Source: Acidimicrobiia bacterium (GTDB lineage Bacteria > Actinomycetota > Acidimicrobiia > Spongiisociales > Spongiisociaceae). From it: a stretch of DNA of 32,011 bases. The translations under genes were made by a program, and so were the position numbers. Position 1 is the first letter of the stretch. Each line of letters begins with the position of its first letter. Where the stretch lies: the NCBI GenBank assembly GCA_009841075.1, contig VXMP01000047.1, forward strand, positions 1-32,011, given 5' to 3'. Below are positions 13,577 to 26,326 of the stretch, in pieces. The notes below the pieces were generated by a model, which ran no database searches, was not told where the DNA came from, and saw only the letters and a program-made list of their open reading frames with translations.

Positions 13577-16576
13577 ATGAATGCCTCGCCTTTGTTCGCT
13601 TCCAGGCCGCGCCACTCGGCGGTCGAATCGATGATGGATCCGCTCTCCAATCCGGTGATCAACACCCCATATGAGGAACCGCAGTGGCATTGGGAGCTTG
13701 ATATGCAAGGCCGGGCGCTGGAGGGGCGGGCACCCAAGGATGGAAGACGGCCTGCCCTGGGCATCCTGCCGGTTCCGCAAGCCGCCCTGAAGGGGGAACA
13801 GGCTCAAGGGGTGCTGGAGTTCACCCCGGACGACCTGAACCCAACGGTGCAGGACATCCGGATCCAGGTGCGCCGCTGGAGAGGCCAGCATTGGCCAGAG
13901 TCCACTCCCACGACCAAAAAGCTGCTTCGATACTGGACCAGAGAAAATCGGCATATCCGGCCTTTTTTCGCCCAGCTGGAGGCGATCGAAACCATCATCT
14001 GGCTCACCGAAACCAAAGAGGGCCGCCGGTTCGCCCGCGACCGGATCGCTCCGGTCTCCGAGAATATGAATGAGGGCCTGATCCGTTGGGCGACCAAGAT
14101 GGCCACCGGCACCGGCAAGACCATGGTGATGGGGATGCTGATCGTCTGGCACACCCTCAACCATGTGCATAGCCCCACCAAAGGCCCCTACACCAGGGCT
14201 TTCCTGGCCATCACCCCGGGCCATACCGTGCGGGAGCGCCTGGGCGAGCTGATGCCGTCCCATCCCGACAACATCTACGACCAGATGGACCTGGTACCAC
14301 CCGACCTGCGCAGCAGCCTCAACAGCGCGGCGGTGGCCATCCACAACTTCCAGGCCTTCCAGCGCCGTGACCTGTTCTCGGGGGTCACCGGAGACGGTCG
14401 CAAGGTGCTCGACCCGCACGGCACCGCCGGAGTGGAGGACGCCGCGGTGATGCTGGATCGGGTGCTGCGCCACCTGAAAGGCCGCAACCGGATCGTGGTG
14501 CTCAACGACGAAGCCCATCACTGCTACAACCCGTCTCAGGCCAAGGGAACCTCCAACGATCAGAAGGTGGCCGGAATCTGGTTCAACGCCATCCTCGAGC
14601 TGGCCCGACAGAAGCGGCTGCTTTCGGTGCACGACTTTTCCGCCACCCCCATGTTCATCAGCACCGCCGCCAAAGCCAAGGGAGCGGAAATGTTCCCCTG
14701 GGTGGTGTCGGACTATCCGCTTCTGGAGGCGATCGAATCGGGGCTGGTGAAGATCCCCCGCCTTCCGATGGAGGACGACGCCGAGAGTTTCGACCTGAAA
14801 TGGCGGGCGCTTTATGCCAACGCCAACCCCAAGAAGGTGACCAAAACCGAGCCGCCCGGCCTGCTGGATGATGCCCTCCATGCGCTCTATATAGATTGGA
14901 CCAAGGAGTGGGAGAGGTGGAGGAGGGCGGGTCGGCGCACACCTCCGGTCTTCATCGTGGTGGCCAACGAAATCCCCACAGCCCAGGCGCTCTATGAGTA
15001 CATAGGAGGCTACGAACGGGTCGATGAAGATTCGGGACGGATCGAGTACGTGGCGGGGGAGTTGGCTGAGTTCTCCAACGTTGAGCTTGAGGGCCGGGGT
15101 TGGAAAGAGACGCCGGTGACCCTGCTGATGCATTCCAAGCTGGACAGCGAAGACAACATCACGGGTGCCCTTGCCAAGCTGGTGAAAGCCCAGGCCGCCC
15201 GTCTGGGAGGTGCTACAGGCCGTAGCAACCGAGGGGCGACCGATGACGTGACCCTGCTCCGCAACGTGCTAAACACGGTTGGCCGGGAGGGGGAACCGGG
15301 CGAACACATCCGCTGCGTGATTTCGGTTTCCATGCTCACCGAAGGCTGGGACACCCGCACCGTCACCCATGTGCTGGGCTATCGACGTTTCAGCACCCAG
15401 CTGCTCTGCGAGCAGGTAACCGGACGAGCCCTGCGCCGGGCCGACTACGAAAGCTTCGACTCGGAAGGAAGGCTCACCCCTGAATATTCGCAGGTGCTGG
15501 GGATTCCCTTCGACTTCATGCCCACCGGCGAGCCGGTGAAGATCAACCCTCCCAATCCGGTCTACACGGTCAAAACCATGCCCGACCGCTCCCACCTCCG
15601 CATCCCGCTGCCTAGGCTGACCGGCTACAGCTGGCAACCGGCCTCGGCTCGGCTCCGGCTCGATCCCGACCGGGTGCAACCCTATAAGGTGGTGACGGCG
15701 GACCGTCCCACCCTGGTGGAGCTGGGCGGGGTGAGCGGCGACCTCGAGCTGGTCGGCCTCGCCGAGGTGCGCCCTGCCCAGGCCGCCTGGCAGATAGCCG
15801 CCGCCTGCTTGAGACGGGTGATCGAACCCTCGAACGGCCATCATCCGACACACAACGGGCTCTCGCAGGCCAAGGGCAGGCTGTTTTCCGATCTGCAGAC
15901 GGCGGTTCAGGACTGGCTGGTCCATCCCGCGGTGTCCTGCGCCGACCACAGAGTGCTCCTGCAGAGCCACCAAAAGGAGGAAGTGGTGGGCCGGGTGTTG
16001 GCGGCCTGTCTGGACGAGGAGGACTCTCCCCGGCTGGTGGGGCGGTTCGATGCGGATGCGCCGGTCCTGCTGGACACCTCAGCGGTCTGGTATGAAACCA
16101 CCCTGCCCGACCGCTATCCGGCCTATGAGGAAGGGGGGCCGTCCGACTCCGACCAACGCTCGGAAGTCAACATCGCCGCCTGCCACAGTGGGCTGGAGGC
16201 CGGGGTGGCCAAGCATCTGGATCGGGATATTCCGGCGGTGGAGGCCTGGGTGCGCAACTTCCGGCTGGGCTGGGAAATCCCCTATCTGTATGACGGGGTG
16301 TGGCACAGCTACGAACCCGACTTCGTGGCCCGGGTGCGGGATCAGGAGGGGCGGCCCTGGCATCTGATCGTGGAGTGCAAGGGGCAGCCCGATGAGAAGT
16401 CGGACACCAAGGCTCGATATGTGAAAGACTGGTGGATACCGGCCGTGGCGGGCTCCCCGCAGATACCGGAGGATTCCAGCCGGTGGGGGTTTGTGGAGAT
16501 CAACTCGGTCTCGGCGGCGGCCCAGGAGCTGCAGAGGGCGATAAACGCTCTGATCAGATCAAAAGCAAGACGTTAG
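13577..16576 (+). CDS. Type III-like restriction subunit (Res): helicase plus nuclease
   Basis: A 999-residue superfamily 2 helicase/nuclease. Walker A is MATGTGKTMVMG (Lys181), motif II is NDEAHHC (Asp311-His314), and motif VI is in the region LCEQVTGRALRR. Near the C-terminus EPDFVAR (Asp915) and LIVECKG (Glu933-Cys-Lys935) form a PD-(D/E)XK nuclease. This is the composition of the Res subunit of Type III restriction systems, which cut after ATP-driven communication between sites. The mod-like methyltransferase follows 31 nt downstream. Canonical Type III operons place mod first; here res is first. No strong ribosome site marks the ATG at 13577; Met codons at 13631/13634 are alternatives. 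Confidence 0.9.
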   Translation: MNASPLFASRPRHSAVESMMDPLSNPVINTPYEEPQWHWELDMQGRALEGRAPKDGRRPALGILPVPQAALKGEQAQGVLEFTPDDLNPTVQDIRIQVRRWRGQHWPESTPTTKKLLRYWTRENRHIRPFFAQLEAIETIIWLTETKEGRRFARDRIAPVSENMNEGLIRWATKMATGTGKTMVMGMLIVWHTLNHVHSPTKGPYTRAFLAITPGHTVRERLGELMPSHPDNIYDQMDLVPPDLRSSLNSAAVAIHNFQAFQRRDLFSGVTGDGRKVLDPHGTAGVEDAAVMLDRVLRHLKGRNRIVVLNDEAHHCYNPSQAKGTSNDQKVAGIWFNAILELARQKRLLSVHDFSATPMFISTAAKAKGAEMFPWVVSDYPLLEAIESGLVKIPRLPMEDDAESFDLKWRALYANANPKKVTKTEPPGLLDDALHALYIDWTKEWERWRRAGRRTPPVFIVVANEIPTAQALYEYIGGYERVDEDSGRIEYVAGELAEFSNVELEGRGWKETPVTLLMHSKLDSEDNITGALAKLVKAQAARLGGATGRSNRGATDDVTLLRNVLNTVGREGEPGEHIRCVISVSMLTEGWDTRTVTHVLGYRRFSTQLLCEQVTGRALRRADYESFDSEGRLTPEYSQVLGIPFDFMPTGEPVKINPPNPVYTVKTMPDRSHLRIPLPRLTGYSWQPASARLRLDPDRVQPYKVVTADRPTLVELGGVSGDLELVGLAEVRPAQAAWQIAAACLRRVIEPSNGHHPTHNGLSQAKGRLFSDLQTAVQDWLVHPAVSCADHRVLLQSHQKEEVVGRVLAACLDEEDSPRLVGRFDADAPVLLDTSAVWYETTLPDRYPAYEEGGPSDSDQRSEVNIAACHSGLEAGVAKHLDRDIPAVEAWVRNFRLGWEIPYLYDGVWHSYEPDFVARVRDQEGRPWHLIVECKGQPDEKSDTKARYVKDWWIPAVAGSPQIPEDSSRWGFVEINSVSAAAQELQRAINALIRSKARR

Positions 16577-16607
16577 AAAGACACCCGAATTAGGGAAGGG
16601 ATATCAC

Positions 16608-19148
16608 ATGGCACGCAAAGGTAAGAAACCGCCTTCTACCGCCCACTACACCCACGACAGTGCCGGGCGTCCCAACCTTCCTACCACCGAAACCCAGGAT
16701 ATGATGCCGGACGAGGAACAGCAGCCCCAAACATTTGCGGTAGAACGCCGCCGCGGGGAGGAACCCACTCTGAACTGGGCGCGGGCGGGGGGTCCCCGGG
16801 AATCTCAGTATGAGGCCTACCCGCTCTACATCCGGGAGAAGGTCCATCCCGGGGCGTTCGTCCAGTCCCTGCAGACGGCGGGTAGCGATCAGTTAGGTCT
16901 GTTCGAGGACTTCAACGGCCTACCTCCCGAAGCCTCCTACGAGTGGTATCGGCACACCGGCAACTGGCAGAACCGGCTTATCCACGGTGAATCCGCCCGG
17001 GTGATGGCGTCTCTGGCGGGTCGGGAAGGCCTGGCCGGGCAGGTGCAGATGATCTTTTTCGACCCGCCCTACGGGATCGGCTTCAAATCCAATTTCCAGG
17101 TGGCGGTGCGACAGCGCGAAACCAAGGAAAACCGCCAGGGTCTGCCGGCCGACCCCAAGATGATCCGGGCCTTCCGCGACACCTACGAGCGGGGGATCGA
17201 CAGCTACCTCGACCAGATGCTGGAAAAGCTCACCCTGGCCCGACAGCTGCTCACCGAGTCGGGTTCGATCTTCGTGCAGATCGGAGACGAAAATGTCCAT
17301 CGCATGGCGATAGTGCTGGACGAGGTGTTCGGACACGAAAACCGGGTAGCCACCATCCCGTTTGCTACCTCGGGTTCAGCCTCGTCCCGAACCCTTCCCA
17401 GCGTGGCCGATTTCTTGTTGTGGTATGCCAAAGACGTTGCCCAGGTTAAGTATCGACAGATATATGAGCATCTGAGCAGACGTGAAAAAATCAAGCATAT
17501 GTCATCTTATGTAATGGTAGAAAAGGCCGACGGTACCGCCCGTAAATTGACTAAGGAAGAGAAGTTAAATACGGACATCCTCCCAGATGGAGCCAGGCTG
17601 TTCAGGCGAACGCCTTTGACGTCACAAGGGCGATCCACAACTGGCAGAAGTGAACCCTACTTCTGGGATGGGGTTCGTTACGACTGTCCGGAGACAGCCC
17701 AATGGGCTGTCTCGATGGAAGGCTTAGATCGGCTGTCCGAACTTAATAGATTGGATAGTGCTGGTCCTGGCAAAGCACTGCATTGGCGGTGGTATGAAGA
17801 AGAGGTGCCAGGCCGGAAAATCAACAACATCTGGCACCGTCCCATGTCCACCTCCGACAAGGTCTATGTAGTCCAAACGGCCAACAGCGTCATCGAGCGT
17901 TGCCTTCTCATGTCCACCGATCCTGGTGATCTGGTGTTTGATCCCACCTGCGGGTCGGGTACCACTGCTCAGGCGGCGGAGAAGTGGGGGCGGCGCTGGA
18001 TTACCTGCGACACCTCCAACGTGGCGGTGGCGGTTGCCCGGCAGCGCTTCACCACCTCCACCCACCCCTACTGGACCATCGACGATCAGTCCAATGGGTC
18101 AAGTCAACTAGACCGAGGTTCATCCGACCCGGCGGCCGGTTTCATCTACGAGAAGGTACGCCACGTTTCGGCCAGGCGGCTGGCCGATGACAACCCGCCC
18201 GAATATCACGAGCTGTTCGACCGGCCCCAAAAAACCAGGGGAGTGGTGCGGGTTTGCTCGCCCTTCACGGTGGAATCCGAAACCCCCTACGCCTACCTTC
18301 CGGTTTCAGGCCTGGCCGAAGACCGCTCCGATCACGCCCGGGCCGCCCTCGCCCAGGGAGAGTTCGAGAAAAGGGTGATCGACACACTTCAGGCCACCGG
18401 CATCTCCAACAGCGCCGCCTCAGAAACCATCCAAATCATCGAGGTGGAGCCCTGGCCGGGGCAGGAAGGCAGCCTGGTCACCCACAAGGCCCGCTACCGG
18501 TCGGGTGCTTCTCAAGAGCGGGAGGCCGCTGTGATGATCGCCGCCGAAGATGTCACTATCACCCCCGCCCTGCTCAGCGCCGCGGTCAACGAATCCGCCA
18601 AACAGGTATATGGCACCGAGCTGCTGATCGCCGCCGCCTTCGCCTTCGACCCCGCCACCTCAGACCTGACCAAGGTGGGAAGGGTGGACATCTCCCGAGT
18701 CCAGATGAACCGCGACCTACAGATCGGCGAGCTCAACCCCGACCAGGCCTCGGAAGCGTTCGTGATGCTCGGCGAACCCGACCTGGCTATCAACCAAGAC
18801 GAAGACGGTCAATGGCAGGTAGAGGTGCGTGGCTTCGACACCTTCAACCCCCGCACCGGAGGAGTAGACGGCGGCAAAGATTCCGACATAGCCTGCTGGA
18901 TGATCGACACCGACCACGACGAACGCAGTTTCTTCGCCCGCCGCATCCACTTCCCCAACGCCCAATCCGACCGTCAGGTAAAACGCCTCCGCAGAGCCCT
19001 AGGCCAAGGCCTTGACCAACTCAAATGGGAAGCCGCCTTCTCCAACAAATCCGCCCTCTTCCCCACCCCCCAAACCGGCAAAATCGCCGTAAAGATAATC
19101 ACCGAAACCGGAATAGAAATGACCGTAACCCGCCCCATCTACCCCTAG
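16608..19148 (+). CDS. Type III-like DNA methyltransferase (Mod)
   Basis: An 846-residue adenine-type methyltransferase. Motif IV is FFDPPYG (Asp152-Gly156) and motif I is FDPTCGSGTT (Asp445 onward), the beta-class order of Type III Mod proteins. The target recognition region lies between them, about residues 240-400. The C-terminal 350 residues are an extension not needed for catalysis. The start follows AGGGA and lies 31 nt after res, so the two are one transcript. The DNA from about 17440 to 17780 is clearly richer in A+T than the flanks and coincides with the recognition region, suggesting exchange of the specificity segment. The modified sequence cannot be predicted. Confidence 0.9.
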   Translation: MARKGKKPPSTAHYTHDSAGRPNLPTTETQDMMPDEEQQPQTFAVERRRGEEPTLNWARAGGPRESQYEAYPLYIREKVHPGAFVQSLQTAGSDQLGLFEDFNGLPPEASYEWYRHTGNWQNRLIHGESARVMASLAGREGLAGQVQMIFFDPPYGIGFKSNFQVAVRQRETKENRQGLPADPKMIRAFRDTYERGIDSYLDQMLEKLTLARQLLTESGSIFVQIGDENVHRMAIVLDEVFGHENRVATIPFATSGSASSRTLPSVADFLLWYAKDVAQVKYRQIYEHLSRREKIKHMSSYVMVEKADGTARKLTKEEKLNTDILPDGARLFRRTPLTSQGRSTTGRSEPYFWDGVRYDCPETAQWAVSMEGLDRLSELNRLDSAGPGKALHWRWYEEEVPGRKINNIWHRPMSTSDKVYVVQTANSVIERCLLMSTDPGDLVFDPTCGSGTTAQAAEKWGRRWITCDTSNVAVAVARQRFTTSTHPYWTIDDQSNGSSQLDRGSSDPAAGFIYEKVRHVSARRLADDNPPEYHELFDRPQKTRGVVRVCSPFTVESETPYAYLPVSGLAEDRSDHARAALAQGEFEKRVIDTLQATGISNSAASETIQIIEVEPWPGQEGSLVTHKARYRSGASQEREAAVMIAAEDVTITPALLSAAVNESAKQVYGTELLIAAAFAFDPATSDLTKVGRVDISRVQMNRDLQIGELNPDQASEAFVMLGEPDLAINQDEDGQWQVEVRGFDTFNPRTGGVDGGKDSDIACWMIDTDHDERSFFARRIHFPNAQSDRQVKRLRRALGQGLDQLKWEAAFSNKSALFPTPQTGKIAVKIITETGIEMTVTRPIYP

Positions 19149-19182: not shown

Positions 19183-20307
19183 CTATCTGATTCCCACGAT
19201 CTGAGCAATCTCGTCTACCTCGGTGGTGTCGAGTCTGAGATAGTCGCTCAGGTCATGCAGGTTGAGAAGTCCTTGGTCAGCCGCCCGTATCAGCTCATCC
19301 ACCACGACGTTTCCATACTCCTGTATGCGCCGCTGCGTCCGGTAGGTTGGGCGACCCCGAGCGAAGCCTTTGTCACGATCCCAGAGCTGCGCCTTCTGGT
19401 CTACCAGGGTATAGAGGGACTGCTCGGCAATTTCGAGACGAATCAGGCGGACGGCAGCGGCCCGAATGCTCACCTTGAACCTGGAAGCGGTTTTCTTGGC
19501 GAGAGCGAAGCCGTCCTCATCTGGAGAGGCCTCTTCCACGAACTGCAGCACGGCATCTCTCGGAAGCAAAACCGAAGCGGCGAACTCCTCGCACCAACGT
19601 TCCTCCTCGGTAGCTTCGCCGGATAGATCAACACACACCGACTCGTTCTGTAGGGCGAGGTGACCGAGTTCGTGGAAGGCGGTAAAAACCCGGGCCTCCC
19701 GGTTGTAGGCCGTGTTCACCGAAATTACCGGCGCGACCTCATCCGAGAACGAAAACCCACGGACACCGTCTTTACCCAGTTGGAGCGCAAACACCAGTAT
19801 TCCGCGCCCTTCGAGCTTCTCCCGCCACCAGAGCCAAGGATCGACAGTCGAGCCCCAATACATCTGACGATCCACTCCCAGCCACCGGCGCACCCGCTCA
19901 CCCGCTGTTTCAGGCACCTCCTCCCGACCGACTCGCGGCAGATCGGCCTTTCTGCCCTGCTTTTGCAACAAGAAGGACACCAGCTGCTGAAGACGGCGTG
20001 CGCGTCTTATCCAAAGGCGCTCCTGTTCCGACAGGTTACGGCCTGCCCTTCTGGGCGACTCTCTCAATGCGGGAATCCGCAGAGGCTCGGGAGCCTGGGG
20101 AGCAAAGAACAAGGCGCTAGGCCGCTTCAGTGTCTTGAACAGCTTGGTGAACTCGCCCCGTGAAGGTTTGGCGATACCCTCCATCCATTCCTTGAGCACA
20201 ACGACATCCACACCCACCTTACGAGAGACATCAACCGGTGATAGGCCGCTCTCTTCGACAGCCCAGCGCACCACCTCGTTGTTCACAGGTACCAATGACT
20301 TAGGCAT
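19183..20307 (-). CDS. XRE-family regulator with ImmA/IrrE metallopeptidase domain
   Basis: A 374-residue protein with an N-terminal helix-turn-helix (about residues 10-60) and an ImmA/IrrE (COG2856) zinc peptidase domain. The HEXXH motif is FHELGHLAL (His212, Glu213, His216) and a downstream acidic residue in CEEFAASVLLP (about Glu240/241) would complete the site. In characterised systems ImmA-type proteases cleave a repressor to release stress or mobile-element genes. AAGGAGGA is just upstream of the ATG. A perfect palindrome about 110 nt upstream may be an operator. It converges on the mod gene and shares the direction of the broken restriction-modification operon upstream. Confidence 0.9.
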   Translation of the reverse strand: MPKSLVPVNNEVVRWAVEESGLSPVDVSRKVGVDVVVLKEWMEGIAKPSRGEFTKLFKTLKRPSALFFAPQAPEPLRIPALRESPRRAGRNLSEQERLWIRRARRLQQLVSFLLQKQGRKADLPRVGREEVPETAGERVRRWLGVDRQMYWGSTVDPWLWWREKLEGRGILVFALQLGKDGVRGFSFSDEVAPVISVNTAYNREARVFTAFHELGHLALQNESVCVDLSGEATEEERWCEEFAASVLLPRDAVLQFVEEASPDEDGFALAKKTASRFKVSIRAAAVRLIRLEIAEQSLYTLVDQKAQLWDRDKGFARGRPTYRTQRRIQEYGNVVVDELIRAADQGLLNLHDLSDYLRLDTTEVDEIAQIVGIR

Positions 20308-20415
20308 CTGCCTTCCTCCTTGCCCTCACGATAGCCACCGGAGGTTTGCAGATCGAACAAGTAAGTATCTGACAAATCTACCTTAATAGGCCGGATCACT
20401 GCAAAAATAATTACC

Positions 20416-20445
20416 CACTTTAGATTATCATGATAATCTAAAGTG
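20416..20445. promoter_or_regulatory. Perfect 30-bp palindrome, probable operator
   Basis: The half CACTTTAGATTATCA is followed directly by its exact reverse complement, with no spacer. The core AGATTATCA occurs again in direct orientation at 20453-20461, 8 nt past the right arm. The element is AT-rich in GC-rich surroundings and lies between the ImmA-type regulator gene and a small ORF. On the minus strand a weak -35 (TTGCAG) and -10 (GTAGAT) follow it on the side of the regulator gene. There is no T-run, so it is not a terminator. Autoregulation by the XRE protein is an inference. Confidence 0.7.
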
Positions 20446-20480
20446 TAGCTTCAGATTATCACCAGGGTTCGATCAGCGCC

Positions 20481-20639
20481 CTATATTGTGCTTCTTGTAG
20501 AGTCGGAGGATTCACGGGCGTATATGACGTTCAACCGGGCCGTGACCTCATCCGTATCGGCTTCGACAAGCAACCGTTCCTGAGTAGGGACGGCCGGCGG
20601 TGCGGTGTCCTCGTTATTTGATTCAATTATCCGTTCCAT
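20481..20639 (-). CDS. Small 52-residue ORF, possible antitoxin-like remnant
   Basis: An ORF starting at ATG 20639, 13 nt after the broken endonuclease stop, preceded by AAAGGCG. The product is acidic, and its C-terminal half (DEVTARLNVIYARESS) has the look of the toxin-binding tail of some MazE/VapB-type antitoxins, which often end in a similar RLNxVYA pattern. The family assignment is weak and no toxin follows. The next element in the reading direction is the palindrome. Confidence 0.4.
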   Translation of the reverse strand: MERIIESNNEDTAPPAVPTQERLLVEADTDEVTARLNVIYARESSDSTRSTI

Positions 20640-20651
20640 CGCCTTTCTAAA

Positions 20652-21486
20652 TCAGGTTGTTAATAAGGCGGACTTGCGATAGTCACGAAGTTCGGCATCC
20701 GTAAGCTGATCGGGTGGAACCAATTCGTAGTGCCCTTCATTACCGATGGTAATCTCGTCATCGTTTTGAGCGAACTCGAATAAGGCAATTTCATCGTCCG
20801 TCACGAACTGGGCGGCGATGGGCCGAGCGATCAGATCGGGAAACTTCTGTTCGGCAACCCTGAAGTCCTGCCAGATTTGGATCACGCTAAGGGCATCAGC
20901 TCCTCCCTTGGCCTGAAGAGGCAGAATATAGTGAGCGCCGTGTTGATCCAGACCCACATAAAGGTCATCGGTCTCGACTTGGGACCTGCTTTTCCCCCGT
21001 CGATGGCGCTGTTAATAGTGATGGTTGTGCGTAGATGGCTTTGTAGGTGGTAGGTGGCTAAGCCGGTGAACACGTCCAGCAGGCGGTTACATCGCAACTT
21101 CGCCAATAGAGCCTGCTCATCGCTCATGACATACTTGGCGATTACACCGGGAGTGGAGTCGGGGAGTCTGATGGTACGCATTCCCATGCGGGGTTCAATG
21201 AGATTGAAGGGAACGGGTCGCAAGATATAGATAGCGCTACCTCCAGGGAAGATAGCCATTCTCGATTTGGAGGTGCCGCTTTCTGCACATTTTCGGGTAG
21301 AGCCGTCCGGTAGCGGAGAGAGTAGATTATGTCTCCTAGATTTTTCGGTCGTGCTTCGCCCAGTTCCTCTGCCGCTTTTATCAAATCGTCTCGCTTGAAG
21401 ACCACTTCCTGATCGCCAGGCCGAAAACGGTCTGCGAATATCTTGCCGATAATTCGTTGGGCCAGGCTCTCCTGGGCAGACTTCAT
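20652..21486 (-). pseudogene. Restriction endonuclease-like gene with two -1 frameshifts
   Basis: Three overlapping frames on one strand join into a single protein of about 278 residues. The first join is near 21258: adding one G restores REW-AIFPGGSAIYIL. The second is in a run of four A after five G (plus strand 20990-20998): adding one base restores DGGK-SRSQVETDDLYVG. The C-terminal part (HYILPLQAKGG, FPDLIARPIAAQF) has the shape of endonucleases found beside DNA methyltransferases, with QAKGG a likely nuclease strand. It begins 4 nt after the methyltransferase stop. Either both deletions are real, and the enzyme is dead, or they are base-call errors. The exact family is uncertain. Confidence 0.75.
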
Positions 21487-21490
21487 TTGG

Positions 21491-22875
21491 TTAGGAACGG
21501 GACGGTCCGGGCCACCTCAGAAGGAGAACCTCCTCGCGGAGTTGTTCTTTGGTGGCGGTGGCTTGACGGGTTCGAAATAGATCAATTCCTTCGACCTCAT
21601 ATCCCGTTTGTTCGGCGATTCCGGCGAGAATCCGTCCGGTTCGGATCATGATTCTCAAGTAGGAGGCTTGGTCGCCGACAACATAGGCCAGACGGGCACC
21701 TGGGCGAAGTACCTTGCTCAAAGAGGAAAAATGTCGAGCCATCCCGCCGAAGTAAAGCCTGGTCACCCTGTGGTAGGTCCTCTCGAAACCGGACTGCTTG
21801 CCAAGAGCTAAACGCCTGGATTCGATGGCGGCGGCTATTCGCTCCACCTCTTCGTTTTCTCCTACCCAGGCGTCGTCGTCATCGTTGCTATACACGCCTC
21901 GGGTGTTTGATCTCACCAGGGTCTTCTTGGCGGTTTGAAGGTCGGCCCGATCGTTTAGGTAGCCGAGCAAGACGGATTCCAGGCGGACCGTGCGGGAGTA
22001 GTCCTTTTCGTTCGGATAGGGCGGCGAGGTGATGACGGCGTCAATGCTCTGGGGTGCCAAGTGCCGATGAACGTCCCTTGCGTCGCCTTCCAGGGCTCGG
22101 GCCGGTGTGGTGTCAATGGACCGGAGATGGTGCAGGTCATCCGACATGGACATAACACTGTCCAGCCAGGGGCCAACCACGGCGGCATCTCGTTTGATCT
22201 TCCCGACACCCACTTCGGGGCCGAACCTGAGGTTCCCTCGGTCGGAAGGATCCGGGCCAGGGCGAGTATTTCATGGGCGGCGAATCTGGAGTCGTGTTCT
22301 TCCTCAAGCACTTCTTTGAGCATCAGAACCTTGTGCAGCGGTAACGGGCTGATCGAGTTTTTCAACAGGAGCTTGGCTGTCTCAGGGGGTAGGGATAGAA
22401 GCCGTCCGTTATGTAGGGGCGATGGGGTCGGGGCGTCACCTATGCCGTCGATGGCGAGCATTGCCAATGCCTTCTCGGCAACCAGCCGGGCATGAGCCTC
22501 CAACAGATCAGGGTCGGGTGACCAGTCAACCTTGGTATTGGCGGCCAGTCGCGAGACGGCCATCGCTTCCAATCCGACACTGGGGATACCCAACTTCTTG
22601 GCTTCAACCAAAGTTGTACCTGTACCACAGAACGGATCCAGAAGGGTTTGGTCTCCGCCGAGGTCGAACCTCTCCGCATAATCACGTACCAGATGAGGCG
22701 GGAACGAAAGGACAAATCGATACCAATCGTGTGCGGGGGTATCCTGAGCAAGCAGGGTGTTCATGGCATGGTTGGTTTGTGGCCGAAGCTGTTGATCTAT
22801 TCCGGTCTTGGCAGGCCGGCGATCAATCCCGGGAAGGGGAATCTGGCGAGGAGCGGTCACGGAGGGCTGGGTCAT
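21491..22875 (-). pseudogene. DNA methyltransferase with one -1 frameshift
   Basis: Two frames join into one protein of about 461 residues. The first holds the SAM motif DPFCGTGTTLVEAK (Asp80 onward); the second holds the catalytic motif VITSPPYPNEKDYSRT and a late VVGDQASYLR strand. Adding one G to the GGG at plus-strand 22235-22237 gives the continuous reading PTEG-NLRFGPEVGVGKIK. SPPYP suggests an N4-cytosine or N6-adenine amino-methyltransferase. The ATG at 22875 has GGAG 5 nt upstream and a TATAAT box about 70 nt upstream. As written the protein would lose its catalytic half, so the system would be inactive. Confidence 0.82.
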
Positions 22876-23794: not shown

Positions 23795-26272
23795 CTATCT
23801 GCTTCCGTTCTCATCTGATGGATCGCTTAAGAGTGCCTGTACACGCTGGGTTTGGTCCGCTATCCATTGTGCAGCGTCGGGCCATTCTTCCTCGTTGTCG
23901 CGCTCCCATGTCATCTCAATCGAAATTGTCCGGCCTTCACGGGCCTTTTTGTCGGCACCGCGGTTGTTGATGGTTTGATCACCCATTGTTTCACGAATCA
24001 TCCTTGAGCACTCGTGCATCCGGGCGGTTCTTTGAGGCGAAGCGCTTTCTGTCGCACGAATGTAGATAACTATTCGTTCGGGGCCTATGTAAAACCTGAT
24101 AAGTTCGCCTTGAGAATTGAGAGCCTCGGTTTTCTGCCAAATCCCTCTCCATTCGTCGTGCTGGCCTGGAAGCCCTCCGGTTTGCCCCATCAGGAATCTC
24201 CAGAACCTTTGCGGAGTTCGGTTGTCGTCGCCTTCTATCTGTACCGTTACCCCGCAACGTTCACCCATCTTGCGACAACGGTCGGTGGTTTCTCTCCAGT
24301 TGCCATAGGGGTGTAAGACGTACTCCTCATGGCCGGGAACAGCACGCATGGTCAGGCGGCCCGCTTTGGTTCCGGGTAGATAACGGGTAGCGGGATGGAG
24401 GTTTGAGCTTATAGCCTGGCCCGATAGCCTTTCGGCGTTTTTCGGGTCCAGGTCCAATAGCGCCGCTGTAACGTTTAGCAACATATGAACGGCGAAGGTT
24501 TCTTCATGCCAGGGCCCGTCTCCGATACGCCATCTAAGTTGATCCTGGGAGGCGGTGGACACAGACGGTGGTTCCGAAGTTCCTCCTTTATTATCTTGCC
24601 AAGGCCATAGTTCCAGCGCCTTTTCCGTCAGGTTTTCGGCACGGCGTTCGATAGCAGCTTCGTCCCACCGGTCTTCCTCGGCAATGCGCCGGGTAATCAA
24701 GATCCCACTTTTTCTGTATGACGCACGTTTTTCGCTGAAGGGCCTGGTACCCATGGTGGGATTGGCGATATAACCACTCAGGGTAAGGTTGCCGAGCCGG
24801 TCGCGATATTGTTCGTGGATTTCTTCTGCGCTATCGCCTAAATCTCTCTTCCATTGGTCGGTGAGCTTGCGAGGCATTACGTGCTCAATGGTTAGACCTT
24901 TTCGATTTGGTGCCTCGTCGGGCTGCTCTCTTTCCATCAACGCACACAGAATCGCATATGTTGACGCTGTGGTGGAGGCCCCATACGCTTTTCGTTTCCG
25001 AATCCCTTCCCCGATCTCTTCGTCATTCGGCATTCCGATGCGTGTGTTCCGTTGATTACTGAAAATTGTGATCCAATAGTCGGCATAATCGTCATCTAGG
25101 CCTGGGCCAGGACGGTAGGCAAAGCTGGCTGCTTCGGTATTCATGCCGGCTGTGGACCGGTTGGCCAACCAGAGTCGGGTGATCCAGGTAGCTATATATT
25201 TCAAGACGGTATTCAAGTCTTGGCCTGCCCCCGGATGGACATCTTGGGCTGCGTCATCCAGCAGACGCAGAGAAAGAGGGCGGTGGGTGTGGATTCCCAT
25301 AGCACGGAGGTGTAGGAGAGTTCGTTCAACCTTCTGATCAGGATGGCTTCCGGCGGTTCCGGTCAAGATTCCGTAAAGATGAGCCAGCCGAGACAATTCC
25401 TGGCAAAGGGATGGTCGATCCTTGTCCTTACTTTCCAGGACGGCCCACCGTCGAAACTCTTCATAAGAGTGTTTGGTTCCAATGTTCTTGCCGGTGAGCA
25501 TTCGGAGGACGTCTCGTAAGAAAGTGTCTATTAGTGGGCTGCTATGTTCGGCACCGAGGCTTCGCTCCATAGGCAACCAGTGATGGTCATGAAGGTACTG
25601 TTGCACATCGTCTTCCAAGCCCATCAAGAGCCAGTTTTTGACCTTCTCGCCCTCCGTTAGGGGCCGCCCGGTGGCGTTGAGGCTCTCAAATATCTGCTGA
25701 GGATCATCTTGAGAACTCAAGGCGATACTTACCACCTTGAACCGCTCCAGACCTTTGAGTAGGCCGGCGGCGTCGTTATCCCTTACCAGTCGTCGGGCGA
25801 TTCTCCAGGCCTGGGTTACAGCACCCGGACCGGAGGGGTTACCTGCCAGGCCTCGTTGATATTCTGTTTCATCTCCGTCTTGGAGCCTTAATTTGCGGCG
25901 CTTTTCCAACCCTACGCCGTCGTTCTCCAGCCGTTTCCTTAGGAGGTTGGCGTTCCATTCGCCGTAATGATTATCAGGCCCCAGCTTTTCGGCGATGCAG
26001 GCCAGAAGAATGCTCACGGTGGTCAATCTTTGTTGTCCGTCAACGACTCGATGGGTTTGAACGACCCCTCCCGGTGCGGGCTCAGGAAAGGTCAGCAGGG
26101 CACCCCCGTAGTGTGCGGCTTCTGATTGATCAGCCTTAGCTATAACCAAGAGATCATCGACCAGGCGTTCGATGTCAGACTGGCCCCAGCTGTAGCGCCG
26201 CTGCCAACGGGGCACGACGTATTGAACCGCCCCGTCCAAGAGATGAAGGAATGGTATATGACTGGCCTGCAT
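23795..26272 (-). CDS. DUF262/DUF1524 (GmrSD-like) nuclease with C-terminal extension
   Basis: A protein of about 825 residues. The N-terminal DUF262 domain shows QRRYSWG (24-30) and VVDGQQRLTTVS (77-88), the ParB/Srx-like nucleotide-binding motifs of GmrS. The middle DUF1524 domain shows IEHVMPRKL (His464) and RLGNLTLSGYIANP, the His-Me nuclease pattern of GmrD. About 250 more residues follow, ending in a region rich in Trp/Glu resembling DUF4268. GmrSD cuts modified (glucosylated hydroxymethylcytosine) DNA; related fusions act against phage. The start is uncertain: ATG 26272 begins the domain, GTG 26326 would add 18 residues, and neither has a clear ribosome site. Confidence 0.88.
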   Translation of the reverse strand: MQASHIPFLHLLDGAVQYVVPRWQRRYSWGQSDIERLVDDLLVIAKADQSEAAHYGGALLTFPEPAPGGVVQTHRVVDGQQRLTTVSILLACIAEKLGPDNHYGEWNANLLRKRLENDGVGLEKRRKLRLQDGDETEYQRGLAGNPSGPGAVTQAWRIARRLVRDNDAAGLLKGLERFKVVSIALSSQDDPQQIFESLNATGRPLTEGEKVKNWLLMGLEDDVQQYLHDHHWLPMERSLGAEHSSPLIDTFLRDVLRMLTGKNIGTKHSYEEFRRWAVLESKDKDRPSLCQELSRLAHLYGILTGTAGSHPDQKVERTLLHLRAMGIHTHRPLSLRLLDDAAQDVHPGAGQDLNTVLKYIATWITRLWLANRSTAGMNTEAASFAYRPGPGLDDDYADYWITIFSNQRNTRIGMPNDEEIGEGIRKRKAYGASTTASTYAILCALMEREQPDEAPNRKGLTIEHVMPRKLTDQWKRDLGDSAEEIHEQYRDRLGNLTLSGYIANPTMGTRPFSEKRASYRKSGILITRRIAEEDRWDEAAIERRAENLTEKALELWPWQDNKGGTSEPPSVSTASQDQLRWRIGDGPWHEETFAVHMLLNVTAALLDLDPKNAERLSGQAISSNLHPATRYLPGTKAGRLTMRAVPGHEEYVLHPYGNWRETTDRCRKMGERCGVTVQIEGDDNRTPQRFWRFLMGQTGGLPGQHDEWRGIWQKTEALNSQGELIRFYIGPERIVIYIRATESASPQRTARMHECSRMIRETMGDQTINNRGADKKAREGRTISIEMTWERDNEEEWPDAAQWIADQTQRVQALLSDPSDENGSR

Positions 26273-26326
26273 GAGGTGTATGACTCCGACTCGCTTTCTT
26301 CGGATAATAGAGCACCAAAGGGACAC

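Follow-up and report, generated by a model that had tools for sequence, protein, structure and literature searches.

The question raised by this locus is which gene its long palindrome belongs to and what the palindrome does there. The window, which is the whole stretch of 32,011 nucleotides analyzed here and the entire contig C12 of its genome (2.3 Mb, 90 contigs), contains a perfect spacerless palindrome (CACTTTAGATTATCA/TGATAATCTAAAGTG) at 20416..20445, with no strand assigned. The two arms (20416-20430 and 20431-20445) are 15 nt each, 100% complementary and 0 nt apart, just as the original prediction of a perfect 30-bp element described them. From the composition of the window, palindromes of such length are expected 4.8e-5 times. 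The runner-up perfect palindrome has 8-nt arms, and the longest arms in 60 random Markov-1 windows were 12 nt. The low expectation and the single occurrence in the window rule out a chance origin. The 18-bp core (AGATTATCATGATAATCT) is found once in the window, so the earlier remark that there was no other copy is right, and the genome-wide search proposed with it also gives one copy in the own genome, even with 3 mismatches allowed. A terminator consensus scan scores the palindrome as terminator-like on the minus strand, but only 3 of the 13 pairs are G-C and the AT-rich tail is weak, and an intrinsic terminator was considered doubtful for these reasons. The scan gave 1 match against 0.5 expected in shuffles. 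The earlier statement that the element has no T-run holds in substance.

A third half-site (CTTCAGATTATCA) lies next to the palindrome at 20449..20461, again with no strand assigned, and is identical to CTTTAGATTATCA at 12 of 13 positions. A shorter delimitation gives AGATTATCA at 20453-20461. The half-site was correctly spotted in the original prediction, but the distance of 8 nt given there is better counted as 5 nt (20444-20448) from the 26-mer at 20418-20443, which is the portion common to other genomes. This 26-bp core of the window, CTTTAGAWTATCATGATAWTCTAAAG, matches the cores of several other loci exactly.

An exact scan of 84,980 genomes for the 24-bp core found 16 loci, mostly from Acidimicrobiia and including a Bacteroidia, a Prevotellaceae and an Acidobacteria record (phyla including Bacteroidota and Acidobacteriota). 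Four of the 16 are sites also seen in G004, G007, G009 and G013, and L099 was judged to be the site of G003. At up to 1 mismatch, the core is present in 8 of 99 genomes, with one site apiece: besides the own genome, these are 6 of the 9 congeners and a further member of the family. A 27-base query at 3 mismatches is positive in 9 of 15 family genomes, each with one site; no copy within 3 mismatches was found in the other 6 of the 15, some of which are incomplete. Searching 11 of the genomes behind the 16 loci in full (3 mismatches) also gave one site apiece, and the copy number is exactly one in 20 of 20 copy-bearing genomes checked. The viral contigs are without an exact copy of the core.

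The single copy per genome and a 28-bp layout of 11+6+11 are shared with dif, the chromosomal site at which XerC/XerD recombine, and there are 16 of 28 matches to the dif site of B. subtilis. The position and distribution are unlike dif, however. G145, whose genome is a single contig, has its site at 0.32 Mb, whereas the skew turn is at about 1.8-2.0 Mb (17 sampled stretches). The distribution is patchy, with the 6 family genomes that yielded no copy, and a separate dif-like 20-mer is present in G003, G009 and G013; G011 has a version that differs by one base, and none was found in G000 or G004. It is therefore extremely improbable that the palindrome is the Xer recombination site of the chromosome. 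The sequence CATAATGCACGTTATGTAAA, which occurs in L202 (G003:C69), L203 (G009:C57) and also G013:C205, is a plausible dif site for this genome family.

The palindrome does have a frequent companion. In 14 of the 16 exact loci, it lies directly before the start of a gene encoding one family of AAA_14+DUF4143 ATPases (PF13173, PF13635), which we take to correspond to COG1373; in the window, the palindrome is present but the gene is not. The ORF is about 384 aa in these 14 loci, with some truncated by contig ends and L086 shortened by an internal deletion. The P-loop motif is GPRQxGKS (GARQTGKS in L090), two of the ATPases match Pfam AAA_14 and DUF4143, and 13 members of the family align well. 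The start codon is exactly 3 nt past the 26-mer in 12 of the 16 loci; in L101 it is 17 nt from the 26-mer, and in L090 the start codon and a further half-site overlap. The 15th locus (L096) has the palindrome and the C-terminal 92 residues of the ATPase (E 1e-24). In the 16th (L099, the site of G003), the palindrome is between glyA and the atp genes, which were named by eye. The palindrome is almost certainly an element belonging to the ATPase gene. In the literature searched, no publication was found that links AAA_14+DUF4143 ATPases with a cognate palindrome, and one Rickettsia phylogenomics paper (PMC2635572) contains both COG1373 and "palindrom"; the association appears to be undescribed in that literature.

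The glyA site shows what can become of the pair. G004 has the palindrome and the ATPase at this site, and G007 and G009 have both after glyA, up to the contig end. G008 has a palindrome with 3 mismatches followed by the C-terminus of the ATPase (E 3e-12), and the palindrome of G005 is decayed (21/26). A 17-residue ATPase remnant is found just after glyA in G003 and G006 (E 6e-4 and 0.008, respectively), and no remnant was found at E 0.1 in G001 and G005. Since several lone or deleted copies still carry ATPase remnants, solitary palindromes in this genus are most readily explained as what remained after the ATPase gene was lost.

In the orientation of the intact copies, the ATPase in the window would begin near 20415, within 20308..20415 on the minus strand, an interval that is now the leader of the ImmA-type gene and has no ATPase remnant. 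There is no ATPase ORF and no ATG at +3 after the palindrome, and a blastx comparison of 20100-20700 with 13 family proteins found no remnant (best E 1.9). Since none is detectable there, the loss of the ATPase from the window is deduced from the relatives. Elsewhere in the own genome, the nearest ATPase shares 42% identity and has no such palindrome site upstream, and going by this best match the genome lacks the palindrome-bearing family. The window copy is probably an orphan left by gene loss. Because no cognate ATPase was found in the genome, the copy is best regarded as a relic, most likely with no role in controlling the ImmA-type gene.

The original prediction suggested that the palindrome is bound by the product of this neighbor or by a restriction-modification controller. 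The neighbor is a 374-aa XRE/ImmA-type gene (19183..20307, minus strand) with a Peptidase_M78 match (IrrE N-terminal-like), and it is probably not the owner. The palindrome is 108 bp upstream of its ATG and has restriction-modification genes on both sides, which would suit an operator of either kind. However, the motif is missing upstream of five XRE-ImmA homologues (L003, which is 60% identical, L004, L005, L205 and L206), where the best matches to the core are 8-12 of 18, the range of 300 random 400-nt sequences. Since these upstream regions match only at a random level, the palindrome is conserved in 0 of 5 homologues as far as sequence goes, which at the sequence level is the outcome that the original prediction named as speaking against it, and elsewhere the palindrome accompanies the ATPase gene instead. 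No restriction-modification controller gene was recognized among ten neighboring proteins scanned (ORFs of at least 100 aa), and a scan of the genome contigs with the ImmA-type protein found no relative. It is very unlikely that the palindrome would serve as the operator of either proposed owner, although the ImmA-type gene may have secondarily taken over the old palindrome site. Cooperative binding to an array of three half-sites, as predicted, is still a good reading, in that the half-site CTTTAGAWTATCA and the third half at 5 nt recur in other phyla; the owners proposed for it are not supported.

A 52-aa ORF (20481..20639, minus strand) adjoins the palindrome and appears to be the C-terminal remnant of an antitoxin-like protein, matching an ORF of G001 (L168) at 66.7% over 21 aa (E 2e-5). 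The antitoxin-like protein is also present in G004, where it is followed by a MazF-like ORF identified by eye. A type II restriction enzyme split over three frames and its methyltransferase, split over two (20652-22875, minus strand), are either decayed or contain sequencing errors; the methyltransferase ORF of this pair looks intact in G009 (L141). A type III-like Res and Mod pair is found at 13577-19148 on the plus strand, with Res scoring 775.6 bits against a cut-off of 800 for the BPTD_3080 family. A GmrSD-type (type IV restriction) protein of 843 aa is encoded at 23795-26326 on the minus strand, for which the best PADLOC hits are also to models named Orf5. With the antitoxin-like remnant and the frameshifted type II pair on the side of the palindrome away from the ImmA-type gene, the island gives an impression of decay, provided that the frameshifts do not stem from sequencing errors.

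The third half-site is not peculiar to the window. Scored at a spacing of 5 nt, the half-site has a mean of 6.25 of 13 matches over the 16 other loci, compared with flank means of 2.5-3.6; because the loci are mutually related, these averages do not amount to 16 independent tests. The score is 12/13 in L101, which has the layout of the window, and 10/13 in L094, but it is 5/13 or less (range 2-5) in 7 of the 16 loci. L090 has a 12/13 third half-site on the opposite side of the palindrome. The half-site thus recurs across loci in mostly decayed form, and the window (12/13) keeps the layout unusually well.

These features suggest how the element may work. In intact copies, read along the minus strand of the window, the order is the third half-site, 5 nt, the palindrome with its abutting halves, usually 3 nt, and the start codon of the ATPase. 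A dimer of the ATPase would bind the half-sites CTTTAGAWTATCA, with cooperativity contributed by the third half-site, and the bound ATPase would repress its own promoter or start site, resulting in autoregulation. The ATPase is proposed as the binder because it is the sole gene that accompanies the palindrome across phyla. Whether the palindrome is an operator bound by the ATPase itself is about evenly balanced on this comparative evidence. The self-regulated operators of toxin-antitoxin and controller genes consist of inverted half-sites that overlap or abut the gene start, with an extra half-site for cooperativity. The palindrome element is likewise located at the gene start with an extra half-site, but its presumed regulator is a P-loop ATPase, a predicted binder, and not a small antitoxin or C protein. 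The ATPase stretch VNYSNIARDCGVSAPTVKAYFGILEDTLL, read by eye from the alignment, resembles a winged helix, and the motif EVDF...EAK resembles a PD-(D/E)XK core. A PDB profile search with the ATPase gave weak matches, with the best to AAA+ chains (E 0.057) and one to a MarR-type chain (E 0.98), which is the sole computed result in favor of these two readings. The structure model built from a 13-row alignment was poor (pLDDT 54.5), and its Foldseek result was used only for AAA+.

The element could instead act in the mRNA, where the left arm would pair with either the third half or the right arm, and these alternative hairpins would hide or free the start of the ATPase. The 3-nt distance to the start codon that is fixed in 12 of 16 loci is consistent with this, as is the folding of the minus strand of the window, which is better than that of shuffles (z -2.48) and pairs the third half with the left arm. 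In L196 and L197, which belong to another subfamily, the outer arms differ and yet stay complementary. However, several loci have a poorly matching third half, and in 5 of the 16 cores the halves differ at one uncompensated position, where about 7 would be expected from the half-site frequencies if the halves varied independently. Because of these uncompensated bases, half-sites that are read individually by a protein would suit the data better than a strict hairpin, although the number is small. Hairpin control of the ATPase start is accordingly considered improbable. The reading preferred overall, with somewhat more confidence than doubt, is that the window holds an operator-like palindrome from the 5' end of an AAA_14+DUF4143 ATPase gene that has spread horizontally, left here without the gene.

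Alternatively, the palindrome could mark an end of a minimal mobile unit with a single gene, consisting of the palindrome and the ATPase ORF (about 1.2 kb). This is unlikely, as is the related proposal that the ATPase would recognize the palindrome during mobilization, with the lone palindromes being scars or internally deleted derivatives. When units at different sites are compared, the palindrome edge is where homology sets in for L098/L094, L089/L095 and L093/L092; for L094/L088 it sets in within 10 nt of that edge. The homology ends near the stop codon in three of these four pairs; in L093/L092, the contig of L092 ends first. Deleted copies retain the palindrome and the 3' end, and the palindrome with the ATPase is found in three phyla. 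COG1373 is listed among HGT-shared genes of gut bacteria in PMC10782964. On the other side, the similarity of L086 and L088 extends upstream of the palindrome by about 70 bp, the flanks are shared entirely in L087/L095 and L094/L097, and no conserved second end was seen by eye at the 3' side. There is no clean empty site, as the sole site compared (G013) proved to be a hotspot where congeners carry different cargo, and one copy in 20 of 20 genomes shows no multiplication. The same borders would be expected from old transfer followed by selection on the gene and its operator, so the border pattern fits either explanation. At the ATPase insertion site of G013 (L032 7885-9870, compared with L168, L169 and L170), the flanking genes are shared with congeners, but the cargo that they enclose there is unrelated.

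Solo ends of mobile elements are known, for example from internally deleted insertion sequences. The lone palindromes and the deleted copies with palindrome and 3' end resemble them. Unlike internally deleted insertion sequences, the present element has no transposase, no second conserved end and one copy per genome. A broader version, in which ATPases of several subfamilies are minimal one-gene mobile units that each recognize their own 5' palindrome, are limited by it to one copy per genome and leave lone palindromes as scars, is similarly doubtful.

Other DUF4143 genes were compared for palindromes of their own, leaving out the loci that had been found via the palindrome. A strong palindrome (score of at least 10) precedes 5 of 42 DUF4143 genes and 4 of 167 control genes (Fisher p 0.018). 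Since 3 of the 4 scoring controls are the same palindromes seen from a neighboring gene (L080, L060) or the one in the window, only 1 of the 167 controls is independent. Different long palindromes are found at fixed distances from the P-loop in other subfamilies (L080/L189, L196/L197, L193/L194 and L081), and none was found at the same threshold in the relatives L190, L192, L056/L195 and L059. An upstream palindrome is therefore general only for a minority of DUF4143 genes, which weighs against the operator reading. In L196 (G013:C92) and L197 (G010:C1), the palindrome is 90 nt before the P-loop and has varying but complementary arms around an ATTGAA...TTCAAT-like center. In L080 (G007:C3) and L189 (G001:C41), the gene is preceded by a pair of 17-bp palindromes that does not differ between the two genomes; the 5 nt separating the pair is the same spacing as that in the window. 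Among plasmid ATPases (four regions viewed of 283 matched records), a different palindrome precedes the gene of Simkania, L157 has a weak one, and none is present in L155 or L156. A viral scan for further relatives found one.

DUF4143 is present in 15 of 15 family genomes and has 22 matches in the own genome. No pair among the 17 DUF4143-type proteins recovered from G000 exceeds 60% identity, so these genes are diverse and not recently multiplied. The ATPases are abundant yet little studied, and a single paper in the literature searched names the domain. The locus illustrates that a palindrome before a gene can mislead, since its true owner may have left. For the family, a 26-bp cognate DNA site that occurs with the gene in three phyla provides a concrete ligand for probing the role of DUF4143 ATPases.
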